This document shows positions 2,779 through 32,128 of a DNA stretch of 32,128 nt, piece by piece (the first letter of the stretch is position 1; each line of letters begins with the position of its first letter). The position numbers were made by a program, and so were the translations under genes. The notes beneath the pieces are model-generated. The model was not told the origin of the DNA. It saw only the letters and a list, made by a program, of their open reading frames with translations, and ran no database searches. Source of the DNA: an uncultured Bacteroidales bacterium. GTDB lineage: Bacteria; Bacteroidota; Bacteroidia; Bacteroidales; Paludibacteraceae. The stretch spans positions 1-32,128 of the forward strand of contig CASDOZ010000021.1 in the NCBI GenBank assembly GCA_949282265.1, read 5' to 3'.

Positions 2779-3579
2779 TTAGTGCGCTGTGATAGGCGTT
2801 GTGTAAATGGGTTGCGCTGCCGGCTCGGGCAACAAGCAGCCCACAAGCGCGGTTATGCCCGCATCGCGGATGGCTTGTGCGGCCATTCCTGCCATGACCA
2901 GCGCGCCAGCTTCGTTGAAGTGGGTGTCGTCCACTTTGCCATCAGGAAATTTGCTCCAAGTGCCGGGTTGTACGTGCATGTAGTAGTTTTTGCTGGCTTC
3001 CTCGCCTGTCTGTTCCAGCCATTGGGCGCTCATCTGGTTCATGTCGAGCAAGGGCACGTTCAGCTCGGCGGCTGTTTGGCGCATAGCCTCGGGATAGCCT
3101 TCCAAAGTATTTTGGCATTGTCCGCCATCGGTAAAGGCGCGGCGCACCACCGAGGTGGCCAGCACGGGTTGTGCTTGGCGTTGGCGCACATCGTTCACCA
3201 TGCGGGTTAGGTTGGCTTTGTAGGCATCAAGGTCGGAGTAGCGGGTGCTGTCGTTCAGTTTTTGGTCGTTGTGGCCAAACTGAATGATGACAATGTCGCC
3301 CGGTTTGATGCGTGCCGCAAGGGTATCCCAACGGCCTTCGTTTATAAAAGACTTGGTACTGCGGCCATTGCGGGCATGGTTCTGCACGCAAATGCGGCTC
3401 GTATCAAGGAAAGTCGGGAACACCTGTCCCCAGCCACGTTCCGGCGAAGCCTCCAGCTCGTCCTTGTCGGCCATGGTGGAATCGCCTGCCAGAAAAAGGG
3501 TCGGCTTCTGCACGCGGGCAGTACAAGCAGCCATACATGCCATAACCATACAAACAACTGACAACTTGATAATTTTCAT
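2779..3579 (-). CDS. Rhamnogalacturonan acetylesterase-like SGNH/GDSL lipoprotein (CE12 type)
   Basis: This 266-residue protein belongs to the SGNH esterase fold and most resembles rhamnogalacturonan acetylesterases, which remove acetyl groups from pectin backbones. The N-terminus is a lipoprotein signal with a lipobox ending MAAC (Cys19), so export and outer-membrane anchoring are expected. The SGNH blocks are all visible: GDST with the nucleophile Ser34, NGRST with Gly72, GHND with Asn104, and DDTH with the Asp217/His220 dyad. It lies 21 bases downstream of the GH105 gene on the same strand, so the two are probably one transcript. Both belong to the degradation of the rhamnogalacturonan side of pectin. 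Other acetylated sugars cannot be excluded as substrates. Confidence 0.85.
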   Translation of the reverse strand: MKIIKLSVVCMVMACMAACTARVQKPTLFLAGDSTMADKDELEASPERGWGQVFPTFLDTSRICVQNHARNGRSTKSFINEGRWDTLAARIKPGDIVIIQFGHNDQKLNDSTRYSDLDAYKANLTRMVNDVRQRQAQPVLATSVVRRAFTDGGQCQNTLEGYPEAMRQTAAELNVPLLDMNQMSAQWLEQTGEEASKNYYMHVQPGTWSKFPDGKVDDTHFNEAGALVMAGMAAQAIRDAGITALVGCLLPEPAAQPIYTTPITAH

Positions 3580-3600
3580 ATTGCAACCAAATTTATTGTC

Positions 3601-4803
3601 CTACTCTTCTGCCGATTTGGCCAATTCCAAAGCTGCCAGAATAAACGGTCCGACCACTTTCGGGTCATCGTTCCGTATCGGTTCCGATATATAATATTCG
3701 AAAGTCCCGCTCCGGTACGGTTTCCCACCCAGACCGGCCACGGCACAAGCCCGCGTAATGGAGGTCGTGCCATCGGGGTTCAGCTGCGTGCTGTATTCGC
3801 ACAAGCCATCGAACGTGCGGCATGCCGTTTCCAAGAAACTGTTGGGCAAGTAGCCCATGCGTGCACCCTTGGCCATAGCGTAGCAGAACATGGTCGTCCC
3901 GCTCGATTCCAGATAGTTGCCTTCCCTGTCCGGAAAATTGGTAACCTGATACCACATGCCGGTTTCCTTGTCCTGAAAGGCCAGCAGGCCGTTACATACG
4001 CGGTTCAAAATCTCAATCATCTGCTGACGCCCGGGCTGGTCGGTCGGCATGTAGTCAAGCACATCCACAATGGCCATGACGTACCACCCTATGCTGCGGC
4101 TCCAGAAATGGGGCGAGCAGCCGGTTTCCTTGTTTGCCCATGCCTGTTCCCTGCTCTCATCCCAGGCATGATAATTCAAACCTGTCAAGGAGTCGCAAGT
4201 ATGCTTGTCAACCACCATAAACTGATTGACAATGTCGGCAAAATCATCCCACTGCTCATGTTCGCTGGCATAACGGGCATAAAAGGGTGAACCCATGTAA
4301 AGACCATCGAGCCACATTTGCCAGGGGTATATTTTCTTGTGCCAGAAACCGCCCTCGGACACACGCGGCTGGGTTGCCAGTTGCGAACGCAAGGTGTCTA
4401 TGGCCATGCCATATTGCGGTTTGGGCACATAGCGGGACAAATCGTACAGAAAAATACCACCGTTCACGCGGTCAATGTTATAGTCGCGCAACTTATAAGT
4501 CTTAATCGTACCCAACGTGTCAATAAAATAATCGGCAAACTCGGTTACGTAATCCAAATAAACGGGATTTCCCGTTACGTCATACACCTGCAAAATGGCC
4601 TTGGCAATCAAACCCTGCGTATAATCCCATTTGGGTTTCTTGACAAAATCGGCCATCCACAATTGCGGATTGTGTTCCATTTCGGAATCGGCAATACGCA
4701 CCGCCCAGTCCGTATAATAAGCGCGGTCATGCCGGCACGTGCAAGCCAACATGGCTTGCAGACAAAAAGCCACCAATGCGGCCATAAGCATGTTTTTCCT
4801 CAT
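3601..4803 (-). CDS. GH105 unsaturated rhamnogalacturonyl/glucuronyl hydrolase, lipoprotein
   Basis: This 400-residue protein is a six-hairpin glycosidase of family GH105 (YteR/GH88-like). The family hydrates and releases the unsaturated uronic acid left at oligosaccharide ends by pectate or rhamnogalacturonan lyases. Hallmarks are the WDYTQGL motif near residue 59, NIDRVNGG near 109, the MWLDGLYMGSPF block with the probable catalytic Asp166, HAWD, and the FWSRSIGWY block. The N-terminus is a lipoprotein signal with lipobox MLAC (Cys21), consistent with periplasmic or outer-membrane action. It is the first gene of a two-gene operon with the acetylesterase. A -7 element (4830-4837) lies about 30 bases upstream of the ATG. 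The length is normal for the family. Confidence 0.88.
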   Translation of the reverse strand: MRKNMLMAALVAFCLQAMLACTCRHDRAYYTDWAVRIADSEMEHNPQLWMADFVKKPKWDYTQGLIAKAILQVYDVTGNPVYLDYVTEFADYFIDTLGTIKTYKLRDYNIDRVNGGIFLYDLSRYVPKPQYGMAIDTLRSQLATQPRVSEGGFWHKKIYPWQMWLDGLYMGSPFYARYASEHEQWDDFADIVNQFMVVDKHTCDSLTGLNYHAWDESREQAWANKETGCSPHFWSRSIGWYVMAIVDVLDYMPTDQPGRQQMIEILNRVCNGLLAFQDKETGMWYQVTNFPDREGNYLESSGTTMFCYAMAKGARMGYLPNSFLETACRTFDGLCEYSTQLNPDGTTSITRACAVAGLGGKPYRSGTFEYYISEPIRNDDPKVVGPFILAALELAKSAEE

Positions 4804-4829
4804 AACTTGAATTTTTGATGAATTTGGTG

Positions 4830-4837
4830 CAAAAATA
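4830..4837 (-). promoter_or_regulatory. Bacteroidetes -7 element before the GH105/acetylesterase operon
   Basis: On the minus strand this reads TATTTTTG, a match to TAnnTTTG, about 27 bases before the GH105 start codon. I see no convincing TTTG element 19-21 bases further upstream, so the call rests on the -7 box and its position. Confidence 0.5.
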
Positions 4838-4891
4838 CGATATCCAGCTGTGAACGGGGTGTGTTTTTTAGTAAAAAAGGATGATTATTTG

Positions 4892-5413
4892 TCATTTGTC
4901 CTGCAAATCCAGCAGTCCATCGGGCAGATGCACATATATTGACTTGCCCTGATAATCTATTTGATCGACGAAAGCATCATGCGCGGGCATCACGACACGC
5001 CCGTCATCCACAACGAACAATACGTTCATGGTCGTATCATCCACGGCTGTGATATGTCCAAGTGAACCTGCTTGCCGGTCAATCACCTCAAAACCGACCA
5101 GGTCGTGCAAAGTAATATCATCCCCATCGGATAATTCGCGATACGCCAACGGAAGATAAATAGTCTTGCCGGCAAGTTCCCGCGCATCTGCCTCCGAATC
5201 GACCCCCTCAAACTTAACAAGGGCAGTTGTTTCCGTCTTGAAACGATACCATTCCAAATAAAACGGCACAAGAATTTCATCCATTTCCAACACAAAAAAA
5301 GGCGCATCCGCATCGTCGAACACAGTGTTCGTGAAACTGCACGTAATCTCGCCTTGCAAGGCATGAGGCGCATGTGTAGTCCCAATCGGGAACAATTCAT
5401 CTTTCCTAATCAT
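4892..5413 (-). CDS. rimM: Ribosome maturation factor RimM
   Basis: This 173-residue protein matches RimM, which binds ribosomal protein S19 and assists maturation of the 30S head and 16S rRNA. The N-terminal RimM barrel starts with the typical IGTTHAPHALQGEITC segment. The family then has a PRC-barrel, here GFEVID....GSLGHITAVDDTTMNVLFVV and a closing VMPAHDAFVDQID segment. The length is normal. It stands alone between two divergent pectinase operons, an odd place for a ribosome assembly gene, and its GC content matches its surroundings. No clear promoter was found in the 190 bases separating it from the polygalacturonase gene. Confidence 0.9.
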   Translation of the reverse strand: MIRKDELFPIGTTHAPHALQGEITCSFTNTVFDDADAPFFVLEMDEILVPFYLEWYRFKTETTALVKFEGVDSEADARELAGKTIYLPLAYRELSDGDDITLHDLVGFEVIDRQAGSLGHITAVDDTTMNVLFVVDDGRVVMPAHDAFVDQIDYQGKSIYVHLPDGLLDLQDK

Positions 5414-17875: not shown

Positions 17876-17952
17876 GGCGCGATAGCTCAGCTGGTTAGAG
17901 CGCATGATTCATAATCATGAGGTCCCCAGTTCAATCCTGGGTCGCGCTACCA
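17876..17952 (+). tRNA. tRNA-Met (anticodon CAU, elongator type)
   Basis: The 77-base sequence folds into a full cloverleaf: a 7-bp acceptor stem with a G1-U72 wobble, a D arm GCTC...GAGC, an anticodon stem CATGA/TCATG with loop TTCATAA, a T arm CCCAG/CTGGG with TTCAATC, and an encoded CCA end. The anticodon is CAU. The anticodon stem lacks the three G-C pairs of an initiator tRNA, so elongator methionine is most likely. A lysidine-modified isoleucine tRNA shares this anticodon and cannot be completely excluded. Confidence 0.95.
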
Positions 17953-28176: not shown

Positions 28177-28265
28177 CACATGGAATTTGCCGAAGGAAAG
28201 CGTTTGCATGTCGCTTGATGCCGTGCCGGCCAGCTGAAACATCCCTTGCCGAAAAAGGCATACAG
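28177..28265 (+). pseudogene. Relic of a CDF transporter gene (internal part, with deletion)
   Basis: Bases 28177-28234 match CDF positions 21859-21916 at 50 of 58 bases without gaps, encoding TTWNLPKESVCMSLDAVPAS in the transporter frame. Bases 28234-28265 then match CDF positions 22073-22105 with a one-base gap. About 156 bases of the gene are missing between the two parts, and the frame ends at a TGA at the junction. It begins 9 bases after the ATPase stop codon. It shares only the GGCATACAG stretch with the other relic. Confidence 0.85.
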
Positions 28266-28282
28266 TACTATTTTTGAGAAAC

Positions 28283-28330
28283 AAAAAACAGAATCCAGAT
28301 ATAAGAAAAAACTTACAACTGAATCCTGTT
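28283..28330 (-). terminator. Long intrinsic terminator of the reverse transcriptase locus
   Basis: On the minus strand AACAGGATTCAGTTGTAAG (28330-28312) pairs with 28305-28287 around a T6 loop. The 19-bp stem has 15 Watson-Crick pairs, three G-U pairs and one U-U mismatch. It is followed by a T run (28288-28283). It lies about 205 bases after the drt3b stop, so the transcript includes the non-coding stretch between them. Confidence 0.8.
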
Positions 28331-28534
28331 TCCATTTACACAAAATTTTGGACAGTATCTTAAATATATACCAGTCTTATTTCACCAACAAGTATTTAAT
28401 AATGTTGAAAAGCAAAGAAATCACATTTGATCTAAGCTCTATTTCCAACCTTTGAGCTATTTCATAATCCTTGTATCCGTCATACATGTGAAAGGTTATG
28501 TGTGTGATATTGGTTGGACCATCCACTTTTAAGA
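28283..28534 (-). ncRNA. Candidate DRT3 non-coding RNA with (CA)4 template motif
   Basis: No protein is supported here. On the minus strand, 28 bases after the drt3b stop codon, CACACACA occurs (28506-28499). A TCCAACC/GGTTGGA stem (28518-28512 with 28450-28444) can enclose it. A competing AACCTTT/AAAGGTT stem (28497-28491 with 28453-28447) uses the same 3' strand. A small hairpin, TGTAT-GACGG-ATACA, occupies 28486-28472. The stretch ends at a strong terminator. DRT3 systems include a non-coding RNA; as I recall, recent work found that one reverse transcriptase copies an ACACAC template in it. The 5' end is not fixed: the RNA may be processed from the operon transcript or start inside drt3b, where a TAACTTTG lies at 28634-28627. 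Confidence 0.6.
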
Positions 28535-30742
28535 TTATGAATAAACCTCTTGTGAAATCTTTGCTTGTAATTCTTTATTCAAATCAAATTTTGTCCATTT
28601 AGTGAAAATATACTTGTTTTGCTCTGCAAAGTTAATAATACTTTCCTGTATTTTTAAATCTTTGATACCCATTTCTGTTAGAAAAAGAATCTTATCAGAT
28701 TTACAAAGATAAGGACAAGTCATAAAATCAGCGGTCATAATTGACAATTCTGCATTTCTGTTTCTCTCTGTAATAGGAACTGATCTATATATATCTAAAA
28801 TTTCTTTTATTAAATCTATTTTAAGGTCTTTGTATGCTTCATGATTTCCGTAGTAATATAAAAGAACCTGGCATATAAACATATTGTATTTATTTATACT
28901 ATTCTTAATATATTGTTTAAGTATGTCAGAAGAGAACAGGTAACGTGTACCTAAACTTTTAGCAATAACCAGCAGATAAATACTCTCATGCATAGCATTA
29001 TTATATTCTCCTGTCGTCTTTAATATTAAGCACAACTCATCTTGTATTTTCTTAAGTATATTATTACGATAGTAGTCATCAAAACGAATGTATTTTTCCT
29101 TTTTCTGTCTGTAATCGCTTCTAATGTATATAACAATAGAGTTAAGAAGCTTTTGAACCTTCAATGTTGTATTAATTTGTCGATTGGCATTATACATAAA
29201 AAAAGCAATGTCAATAATAGCACTAAGATATGATACTAATTGTTTCTGAGCAGACACTCTTATTTTTATGGCTTTCTCTTTTTCATCTGAATCTTTGAAC
29301 TTAGATGTACAAAGAGCCTTATATCCAGCATCAAAATTAGTCAAAAATCTATCCACTCTACGGCCTAATATTTCTAGTGTGTAATTAACAACGTCATTGT
29401 AAGAAACATCTGTCTCACTGATGATAGATTTAAAGTCAGCAATAGTATAGTTTGGATCTGCATATAATGAAAGCTTTGATGATAGCACCTTAGTTAAATC
29501 AATACTATTATCTGCTTCTACTACTTGATCTTCTATTGTCGTATTTGAAATATCATCTACATCGTCTAAAATATCTTCAGCTGGTAAATTAATCTCATCG
29601 TGTTCCCATATTTTTTGTTTCGTTAATGTTTGTACCAGCATATTTATCCTTAACTTCGCTTTTGTCACATTTGTAATAAAAGGTCTCTCATATTCTATAG
29701 TTTTGGATGGACTTATACAGAGCTTATATTCTGACAACCATTTAGTAAAACATTCAATAATAGTTTGTTCGTCTTTTTTATTGTTGTAAAAAAGAAAATA
29801 ATCATCTACATATCGATAACATTCATAGTTAACTTTATGTATCAAGTTTTTATTATTAAGTTCATACTCTACTTTTTCATCAATATTTTGCAAAATTATT
29901 TCAGCGAAAATTCTAGAAAATTCAGGACCAATTACAATACCATTTGTTTCTCTGGCATTAAAAGATTGCATCATGTCATCAAAAGCATCACCTAACCAAC
30001 TTCCTTTATAACCAGGCATAAGCTTCACACTATTTCTTCCTCCTCCAACTGCCCAAGTTATAGAATGTGTATAGATACTGTCAAAACAGCTTTGAAGATC
30101 AAACTTAACTAGATATTTGAATTTCTTTTCTGCTCTTTGATATCGATAGTCTTCATAAAATTTATAAATGTTTGAGTACTTCTGATAACTAAAGTAACTC
30201 TTAAGGTTTTCATATTCATTAAAATACAATTCAACACTTTCACGTTTCTTTCCCAATAATTTTGCGTGTAATCTATCCTTATAGTAGAAATATTGAGCAA
30301 CTTTTACTGGCTTTCTTAAAGAGAAACTACTTCTTGAACATAGATATAATATGGAATATCTATATTTATCATAAAAATCAACTGCTTGTAGTTGATTTAA
30401 TGGATGGATAATAGATAGTATTCTACTTTTGCCGGTTTTGTGCGCAATGTTAAATTGAAAAGGATAAAATACACTATTTTGTTTTAAGGATGCAGTATTA
30501 GAGAAACCAAATAATAGATGAGCAAAGCCAAGCCCTCCCTCATCTATCTTTTTTTTCTGTTTTAGAAAAATATATGATTTACCTTGTTCGTTACATTCTT
30601 CCTCTATATAGAACTTGTATTTTGAGACGAAACGATAAAAATACCGGTTTGAAAAAGTCAATGGTGTTTCATATGGTAATACATCAGAAAATAAGACTCT
30701 TTCTTTACCATATTTTAATTTGATTTTCTTTCTTTTTTTCAT
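28535..30742 (-). CDS. drt3b: Drt3b-like antiviral reverse transcriptase
   Basis: This 735-residue protein is a reverse transcriptase that I assign to the second subunit of type 3 defence-associated RT systems (UG8 group). The N-terminus, with KERVLFSDVLPYETPLTFSN, fits my memory of Drt3b. The palm motifs are VKFDLQSCFDSIYTHS (catalytic Asp215), GIVIGPEFSRIFAEIIL (about 269-284) and YRYVDDYFLF with YVDD at 311-314. A helical region of more than 350 residues follows with no recognisable domain. The ATG at 30742 overlaps the stop of the drt3a 3' reading frame in ATGA; a GTG two codons upstream is a weaker choice. The gene is much richer in AT than the core genes, as expected for transferred defence DNA. 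Confidence 0.82.
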   Translation of the reverse strand: MKKRKKIKLKYGKERVLFSDVLPYETPLTFSNRYFYRFVSKYKFYIEEECNEQGKSYIFLKQKKKIDEGGLGFAHLLFGFSNTASLKQNSVFYPFQFNIAHKTGKSRILSIIHPLNQLQAVDFYDKYRYSILYLCSRSSFSLRKPVKVAQYFYYKDRLHAKLLGKKRESVELYFNEYENLKSYFSYQKYSNIYKFYEDYRYQRAEKKFKYLVKFDLQSCFDSIYTHSITWAVGGGRNSVKLMPGYKGSWLGDAFDDMMQSFNARETNGIVIGPEFSRIFAEIILQNIDEKVEYELNNKNLIHKVNYECYRYVDDYFLFYNNKKDEQTIIECFTKWLSEYKLCISPSKTIEYERPFITNVTKAKLRINMLVQTLTKQKIWEHDEINLPAEDILDDVDDISNTTIEDQVVEADNSIDLTKVLSSKLSLYADPNYTIADFKSIISETDVSYNDVVNYTLEILGRRVDRFLTNFDAGYKALCTSKFKDSDEKEKAIKIRVSAQKQLVSYLSAIIDIAFFMYNANRQINTTLKVQKLLNSIVIYIRSDYRQKKEKYIRFDDYYRNNILKKIQDELCLILKTTGEYNNAMHESIYLLVIAKSLGTRYLFSSDILKQYIKNSINKYNMFICQVLLYYYGNHEAYKDLKIDLIKEILDIYRSVPITERNRNAELSIMTADFMTCPYLCKSDKILFLTEMGIKDLKIQESIINFAEQNKYIFTKWTKFDLNKELQAKISQEVYS

Positions 30743-31179
30743 ACCCACGATCTTTTAATTACTTGTAAGCGATGTTTGCTAATACAAAATCGTTTTCTGG
30801 ACTCAAACCCCTTAACAAAATTTGCGTTTTTTAGTAGCACTCTTTTTAATTTGTCCTCCTCTGTCTTACGTTCCATTTCTGATCCAAATCCTGAAATAGG
30901 TAATGATATTTTCGCTATCTTTTTTTCCAAGTTTTTGTCATATAAACTTAAAACTGAAGAATTATCTAATATTTGATTAGAGTAATATGCTCCAATTTTT
31001 ATTCCTTTTTTATTGTTATGTAGATTTGTATTAGCAGTCAAAATACGTAGGGCATCAAACAAATAAGATTTAGCCTTTAAATAATCTATTGACAATAAAT
31101 TAGAGAAAGTATCAAATATTTTATTTATACGCGTTATAGTTTTTTTTGATTTTTTTACTCGAATGACATACCTTAACAA
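30739..31179 (-). CDS. C-terminal part of the Drt3a-like protein, shifted reading frame
   Basis: This open frame is not a gene of its own. Its nominal start is a TTG inside the end of the RT frame, and its first residues are the wrong-frame reading of that end. From the A8 run at 31147-31140 on, it supplies TITRINKIFDTFSNLLSIDY and about 110 further residues, the helical C-terminal region expected after the RT palm. Removing one A from the run joins it to the upstream frame and gives a protein of about 460 residues. Its TGA stop overlaps the drt3b ATG, so translation of this frame is expected to feed drt3b. The intact open frame argues that the break is recent, regulated or artefactual. Confidence 0.7.
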   Translation of the reverse strand: MLRYVIRVKKSKKTITRINKIFDTFSNLLSIDYLKAKSYLFDALRILTANTNLHNNKKGIKIGAYYSNQILDNSSVLSLYDKNLEKKIAKISLPISGFGSEMERKTEEDKLKRVLLKNANFVKGFESRKRFCISKHRLQVIKRSWV

Positions 31180-32122
31180 TGCCGTTAGAAATACTAAAAC
31201 GATAACCTAAAAAATCGAATTCGTATGACTTACCCGTTGTAGCATCAATAACTATTGTTTTATCAAGTGACAATGTTAGTCCTTTTTCCTTAAATATATT
31301 CTCAATTAAACTTTTATAATAATCAATTGCTTTATTATCTTTAGGAGTTTGAACAGGATGTATGATAATTATGATGTCATCCACATACCTATTATAGTAA
31401 ATTATTTCACCTATTTTCTGTTTTATATCCTGATCTGTCTTGGACAAATACAATTCTGCTAAATATGAACTTATTGCACACCCTCTTGGAATCCCTGTAT
31501 TGGAAGTTGTTACCAAACATCTACAGTTTTTCTTTTCAAATTCATTGCAGATCAACCCTTTTAACATTGTTTTATTTTTATAGTCTAAAAGGGTATTGTC
31601 ATCAATTATTTTAAACAATTGATTGTGCGGTATTGATTCAAAGCAATGTTGTATATCTGTCCTTATAATATATTTTGGATGCTTATCTTCACCAAGTAAT
31701 TGTTTAACTTGACTTAATATATTGTTACGACTAGACATTTGCAGGTTGAAAGTGTGTTTCAAATTTCTACATAAAATTTTCATTGCAAAAAATTCTTCTG
31801 CAGTTTTTCCTATCAAATAATTTGGTTTCTTAGGATCATCTGATTGCTTTGATGTTAATGTAAACTTGAATCCACGCCTGTTTATTCCTTCGGAGATTTT
31901 AAAAAGACACTTAGTCAACAAGTCTTTTTGCTTTATCGCATTATCTTTCATCTTTATCTCTAACTCAAGAATTTCAGTTTCTTGTTCTTCAGTACGTATT
32001 TCTTTTGAAATTTTTTTTAGAGAATTTATACTATGACGCATAACTCTATATTCCTTTGCAGCTTCTAAATATTCTGCTGAAAGGAATTCCTTCTTTACTT
32101 GTCCTTTGCGATTTGATTGCAT
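31121..32122 (-). CDS. drt3a: Drt3a-like antiviral reverse transcriptase, frame broken near 3' end
   Basis: This 333-residue frame holds the catalytic part of a reverse transcriptase that I assign to the first subunit of type 3 defence-associated RT systems (UG3 group). A charged helical N-terminus (about 30-70) precedes IIRTDIQHCFESIPH (catalytic Asp156), NTGIPRGCAISSYLAELYL (about 208-226), YNRYVDDIIII with YVDD at 246-249, and FDFLGYRFSISNGIVKV (303-318). No maturase, integrase or retron-type features are seen. After SSKKIKK the frame runs for only six more residues to a stop, while the sequence expected after this point continues in the +1 frame from an A8 run. The ATG is 6 bases from the window edge and the frame is open before it, so the start could lie further upstream. 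Confidence 0.78.
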   Translation of the reverse strand: MQSNRKGQVKKEFLSAEYLEAAKEYRVMRHSINSLKKISKEIRTEEQETEILELEIKMKDNAIKQKDLLTKCLFKISEGINRRGFKFTLTSKQSDDPKKPNYLIGKTAEEFFAMKILCRNLKHTFNLQMSSRNNILSQVKQLLGEDKHPKYIIRTDIQHCFESIPHNQLFKIIDDNTLLDYKNKTMLKGLICNEFEKKNCRCLVTTSNTGIPRGCAISSYLAELYLSKTDQDIKQKIGEIIYYNRYVDDIIIIIHPVQTPKDNKAIDYYKSLIENIFKEKGLTLSLDKTIVIDATTGKSYEFDFLGYRFSISNGIVKVCHSSKKIKKNYNAYK

Positions 32123-32128
32123 AAAGAC

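Follow-up and report, generated by a model that had tools for sequence, protein, structure and literature searches.

The DNA directly past drt3b in this locus very probably codes for a DRT3 ncRNA of Bacteroidales, one that belongs to a compact, pseudoknotted class (probability about 0.87). In the window, by which we mean the whole 32,128-nt stretch of DNA that was analysed, the ncRNA probably extends over 28405..28534 of the (-) strand, as indicated by a covariance-model (CM) match at 28411-28529 and a U-rich tail at the end. The position of the stretch, the conservation of its CA repeat, the covariation of the pseudoknot in relatives and the conserved residues of Drt3b were all observed; from them we infer that the window RNA is transcribed and processed, that its repeat is used as a template, and that its structured flank has a boundary role. 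The template and its place are already known, and the architecture of the ncRNA is the new part.

In E. coli DRT3, according to the main text of PMC13174585, the ncRNA gene lies downstream of drt3b, and Drt3a synthesises poly(dTdG) by copying a conserved 5'-ACACAC-3' found in a loop of this RNA; poly(dCdA) is the product of Drt3b, in which E22 and R241 act as gates and Y666 as the primer. The first-pass annotation of the window had likewise described an ACACAC template from which one RT makes poly(GT). It had also located a (CA)4 repeat 28 bases past the drt3b stop, and the repeat is present there. On the operon (-) strand, 28 bases separate the drt3b stop (28535-28537) from CACACACA at 28506-28499, so that the repeat starts at nt 29 past the stop. 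CACACACA occurs a single time within the window, and since 1.08 occurrences are expected by chance, it carries no weight alone. The pairing segments proposed along with it were also found: CCAACC...ACACAC...GGTTGG occurs once in the window, with 0 expected. At sequence level, the window thus holds an ncRNA gene with ACACAC 3' of drt3b, in the published E. coli place.

We then asked how the repeat behaves among relatives, which were gathered by the Drt3b protein only, without the repeat as a criterion. Loci were taken from the 4 best other genomes, 3 of 164 plasmid records (many of these being other RTs), 80 of 90 matches found and all 18 of another search. With the window this gave 106 loci, of which L043 and L067 stop at a contig end, leaving 104 with enough downstream sequence. 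The results showed that (AC)3 lies within 240 nt past the drt3b stop in 101/104 loci and within 96 nt in 89/104. Control stretches of 90 nt from cluster representatives contained (AC)3 in 10/1311 cases inside drt3b and in 2/833 cases 300-1500 nt downstream. Since a handful of contigs had been collected twice, the 101 repeat-bearing sequences were clustered, giving 69 clusters.

The three exceptions were inspected individually. In L130 and L131 the drt3b frames are broken, and ACACAC lies farther downstream with a flank as in the far-type locus L123 (defined below); in L132 the repeat lies in the gap between the two RT genes, on the other strand. The repeat was also present in all five extra plasmid loci (L148-L152, at nt 68-157) and in all four E. 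coli loci fetched of the 22 found (at nt 42-129). Disappearance of the CA repeat from relatives whose RTs are intact had been named beforehand as an observation that would count against a template; instead (AC)3 is kept in 101/104 loci. Invariance of the repeat across Bacteroidales had likewise been proposed as a check, and ACACACAUA is invariant in the 16 aligned Bacteroidales sequences, window included. A chance 8-mer in a 3' UTR beside a mobile-element remnant would be in keeping with the expected count of 1.08, with the fold z of -0.67 and with the dispersed repeat that adjoins the region (both described below), but the repeat in place in 101/104 loci refutes this reading for the family, the invariance of ACACACAUA also speaks against it, and we hold it as extremely improbable. 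Comparison of the sequences thus argues that the CA repeat is almost certainly the template part of a DRT3 small RNA, as the first-pass annotation had suggested, and CACACACA (28499..28506, (-)) would serve in poly(GT) synthesis by Drt3a.

The proteins encoded beside the repeat were assessed in the same way. Drt3b (UG8 RT; 28535..30748, (-)) matched the PADLOC Drt3b model at 3e-178 over residues 3-737 of 737, and E27, R279, YVDD 313-316 and Y736 are present. The E. coli locus L182, whose 667-aa Drt3b has E22, R241, Y276-V277-D278 and Y666 at the published numbers, was used to match E27, R279 and Y736 of the window to E22, R241 and Y666 as given in the main text of PMC13174585. The A/C gate and primer residues of a DRT3 Drt3b (E, R and the C-terminal Y) are therefore all found in the window. 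In the set of 98 Drt3b proteins with 600 aa or more, R279, Y313, D315, D316 and Y736 are conserved in 98/98 and E27 in 95/98, the exceptions being L044 (a gap), L069 (Q) and L127 (D). The E. coli locus L181 has at 2960-4999 an annotated Drt3b without the C-terminal tyrosine tail present in L182. Together, the almost universal repeat, seen here in a broader set than the published one, and the A/C-selecting residues of Drt3b give strong comparative support to two RTs matched for complementary strands.

The drt3a gene (UG3 RT) is in a different condition. PADLOC Drt3a matched two pieces in separate frames (3.3e-66 and 3e-18): an N-terminal piece at 31121..32128 (-), cut by the contig end, and a C-terminal piece at 30739..31179 (-) in a different frame. 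The frame splits at an A-rich run within 31121-31179 of the window, and in 71/71 assessable relatives (34 others were not placeable) the two pieces form one open frame. The split may stem from an error in the assembly, or the gene may be dead; because of the split, the window copy is possibly inactive. Homopolymer runs in draft assemblies are common error sites. A decayed DRT3 locus, in which the RNA and drt3b look intact and the broken drt3a kills the system, is a serious alternative to which we give somewhat less than an even chance: the single open frame of the relatives, the end of the contig inside drt3a and the dispersed repeat downstream are all consistent with decay, whereas the break falls at just such an error-prone run of a draft assembly and drt3b is intact with its key residues preserved.

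We next examined the predicted RNA itself. S1 is formed by a 5' arm, GUGGAUGGU (28518..28526, (-)), which pairs with ACCUUUCAC (28488..28496, (-)) at 8/9 positions with one U-U; this 3' arm begins 2 nt past CACACACA. The 5' strand of the putative pseudoknot, CCAACC (28512..28517, (-)), would pair with a 3' strand, GGUUGG (28445..28450, (-)), that lies inside the loop of SL3, a hairpin of AGCUC and GAGCU (28435..28458, (-)); covariation of the two strands is seen at family level. The duplex of CCAACC and GGUUGG in the window has a computed energy of -7.7 kcal/mol. A further hairpin, SL2 (UGUAU and AUACA; 28472..28486, (-)), is predicted by single-sequence folds, and the RNA may end in a U-rich tail at ~28418-28405.

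Support for the pseudoknot is weaker in the window's subgroup than family-wide. When the hairpin was chosen blind in the window, SL3 was recovered and its pairing ranked 0.029 among swaps; a refined blind choice in the window picked another hairpin instead of SL3. The window was the best of 20 shuffles in a joint test and shows the features of the near-type class as proposed here, and the nearest cluster (the L004 group) ranked 15 of 20 in the same test. The window and the L004 group have identical pseudoknot cores, so no covariation is seen there. We consider it probable, though well short of sure, that the pseudoknot exists in the window copy.

The stability of the fold tells a different part of the story. 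The first-pass annotation had described the region as a structured stretch that ends in a strong terminator, and its 28283-28534 segment does fold with a z of -2.74. This value includes a dispersed repeat at ~28285-28362 (strand not assigned), which is present at 7 places in the genome, counting the window, lies outside the RNA and has some copies near contig ends; it is perhaps an insertion-sequence end or a small mobile repeat. Folded without it, 28405-28534 gave a z of -0.67, with 55/200 shuffles equally good, which is ordinary stability. The hairpin at 28284-28333 in the fold of 28283-28534, which had been taken for the terminator, lies within this seven-copy repeat, and a terminator scan of 28200-28800 found none. 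Single-sequence folding was thus misleading because of the dispersed repeat. Overall, the repeat, its position and its pairing partners stood, and the terminator and the single-sequence structure did not. The proposed structure of the window RNA rests on comparison and not on fold stability.

To describe this comparison, the clusters were divided by the distance of the template from drt3b. The template starts 24-87 nt past drt3b in 59/69 clusters (near type) and farther away in the other 10/69 (far type). Two features of the near type were recognised by eye, then by script: the template loop is closed by a stem, S1, the 3' arm of which comes shortly past the template, and the stretch that separates S1 from the template is complementary to the loop of a 3' hairpin, SL3. 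SL3 was picked blind to the pairing of loop and flank before the pseudoknot was scored. The results showed that the mean pseudoknot pairing of the 59 clusters was 14.26 with their own partners vs 10.99 with permuted partners (z 12.1, 0/2000), and S1 pairing also exceeded permutation in these clusters (z 6.8, 0/2000). At the level of single clusters, 30/59 had a rank of at most 0.1 by blind hairpin choice, several hairpins being wrong, and 31/59 by the refined choice. Against dinucleotide shuffles, the joint descriptor placed 31/59 clusters best of 20 and 41/59 in the top two, with 28/59 not best.

Covariation was measured in 15 aligned RNAs of Bacteroidales, the window excluded, the tested structure having been derived from the same sequences. 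Pseudoknot cells were paired in 82.5% of cases, and covariation of the pseudoknot was 0.565 vs 0.289 when shuffled (0/500) and at most 0.199 when slid. Two of five covariation measures gave no clear win in this alignment, namely both-side changes (92/500) and further pair types (81/500). SL3 was paired in 87.8% of cells. S1 was paired in just 52-60% of cells in fixed columns, because the offset of its arm differs among rows. In the 10 far-type clusters the same descriptor gave no signal (S1 z 0.7, pseudoknot z -0.2). Taken together, these comparisons suggest that many near-type DRT3 RNAs fold as a pseudoknot unlike the E. coli version.

A DRT3 ncRNA with an ACACAC template could also have a loop pairing that is incidental, with no functional pseudoknot. 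The minimum-free-energy folds of the window pair CCAACC and GGUUGG as an ordinary nested helix, in L182 of E. coli a hairpin precedes the template and the terminator carries a tetraloop, and the far-type clusters lack the signal, all of which would fit incidental pairing. The nested fold, however, rules out S1, which is itself supported, and the loop pairing covaries in 15 relatives in which SL3 is paired in 87.8% of cells. We therefore regard incidental pairing as unlikely, and a functional pseudoknot in the near-type RNAs is preferred.

A CM, R1, was built without the window and searched against 99 sources (the window and 98 loci). Its best match in the window was 28529-28411 (-), with 23.9 bits, an E of 0.0044 for 32 kb and an E of 0.11 among the 99 sources; this match did not align SL3 as drawn. 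In the whole genome of the window (G000), the CM gave no match at E <=0.01. Among the 99 sources there were 27 matches at E <=1, of which 26 lie directly past drt3b and 13 are training rows, and one (L082, 7733) is off place. At E <=0.03 there were 23 matches, 13 being training rows and some others near-copies of them. No alphaproteobacterial locus reached E 1 in the 99 sources. Applied to 295 genomes with stricter filters, R1 found one site, that of L013/L180 (G193 C86 583-686), which lies past a C-terminal drt3b fragment near the contig start. For comparison, the published CM, seeded from EcoDRT3 and close relatives, gave 32 unique hits in the main text of PMC13174585, where a legend gives 41 systems. 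Rfam at gathering score had no match in the window except the tRNA at 17876-17949. A CM of the near-type class could aid annotation of these RNAs; the present one, which missed G000 at genome scale, is too insensitive.

These structures suggest how the template might be presented. Drt3a would copy CACACACA in repeated rounds to give poly(GT), and Drt3b would make poly(AC) with no nucleic-acid template. In each round, copying of CACACACA by Drt3a would proceed toward the 5' side and halt at the structured flank; the GT product would then slip back by one or more units, and the next round would begin. The template would be bracketed by S1 and, at its other edge, by the pseudoknot or, in some groups, a hairpin; the pseudoknot and S1 may do the job of the E. 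coli hairpin just 5' of the template. This bracketing and boundary role is proposed by analogy with the boundaries of DRT10 and telomerase, for which the available text of PMC12632851 describes a template boundary element that is a stem-loop or a pseudoknot. The pseudoknot beside the template thereby offers a testable idea for the stop of Drt3a at the template edge, parallel to the telomerase boundary element. The spacer between pseudoknot and template is 2-59 nt (median 20) by the descriptor, so the pseudoknot would not always be the boundary itself, which weakens the boundary idea.

Among known systems, the DRT10 ncRNA and telomerase RNA share with this RNA a short template that is copied repeatedly and has a structured 5' edge, and they differ in RT group, repeat and operon (available text of PMC12632851); no membership is claimed. 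The DRT2 ncRNA, as described in the available text of PMC12039810, is likewise RT-bound and has a pseudoknot and a template region, but its template assembles a repetitive gene. The word 'pseudoknot' is absent from the main text of PMC13174585, and the available texts of PMC12596737 (on DRT2) and PMC12632851 contain both 'DRT3' and 'pseudoknot'. No pseudoknotted compact or opposite-strand DRT3 ncRNA is described in the mostly open-access literature covered.

We further compared the window with E. coli DRT3. The two share Drt3a and Drt3b, an ncRNA past drt3b, ACACAC and the E, R and Y residues of Drt3b; closure of the template loop by a stem is a further likeness to L182, as read from one fold. 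They differ in the place of the repeat, which is at nt 29 in the window and at nt 129 in L182, and in the surrounding structure: the window has a predicted pseudoknot with the loop of a 3' hairpin, whereas in the one fold of L182 a hairpin immediately precedes the template and the terminator has a tetraloop. An E. coli-type stem-loop directly 5' of the template was not found in the window, where 28 nt precede the repeat and the putative pseudoknot strand is present instead. The pre-template stem-loop is a feature of the E. coli RNA and not of the whole DRT3 system. Three other E. coli loci (L183, L184 and L033) are near-type loci with the repeat at nt 42. L181 and L182 adjoin P4-like satellite genes.

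Another arrangement was found in phage and Lactobacillales plasmid loci. Of 28 further loci, L153, L154, L158 and L169 were inspected for repeats. In L132, L153, L144, L146 and L147 (5/7), the gap between the RT genes holds ACACAC when read on the opposite strand to drt3b, and just ACACA is found in this gap in L145 and L154; L146 and L147 are nearly identical, so the 5/7 are not all independent. The inter-gene loci opposite drt3b are L132 3282-3446, L153 ~3040-3215, L144 3364-3455 and L146 3263-3521. E26 and R256 (L132 numbering) are kept in the four aligned Drt3b proteins of opposite-strand loci, and these kept gate residues fit an ACACAC template rather than GUGUGU. For the L132-like loci we also weighed a GUGUGU template in sense orientation and set it aside; the fold z favoured the opposite strand in L132 (-5.90 vs -3.65) and L146 (-6.72 vs -3.15; 60 shuffles each). 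There was little difference in L144 (-1.05 vs -0.12) and L145 (-2.69 vs -2.49; 60 shuffles). Between L132 and L153, the changes in a hairpin, on our reading, preserve G-U pairs and GNRA loops solely on the opposite strand. In plasmids of Pediococcus and Lactiplantibacillus, drt3a, assigned there by position and label, is oriented divergently to drt3b; L146 and L147, both Lactobacillales plasmids, carry a drt3b homologue and a divergent RT, both labelled RNA-directed DNA polymerase.

The inter-gene repeat on the opposite strand is a possible third DRT3 RNA architecture, for which the case is thin. Taken jointly, we lean slightly toward one chemistry, with ACACAC, served by three or more RNA architectures. 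One is that of E. coli; a second, compact and pseudoknotted, lies past drt3b in Bacteroidota, Alphaproteobacteria and other groups, and its SL3 loop would hold the 5' flank of the template; a third is an opposite-strand type between the RT genes of the phage and Lactobacillales plasmid loci. If this is true, template presentation in the compact type would depend on completed transcription.

A last feature lies near the 3' end of the predicted RNA. UGUGAU at 28420..28425 (-) complements AUCACA (28503-28508), which sits at the template's 5' edge, and this complementarity could act as a template lock. A similar complementarity was seen in L004, with GUGUGAAA against UUUCACAC, making two independent sequences in all.
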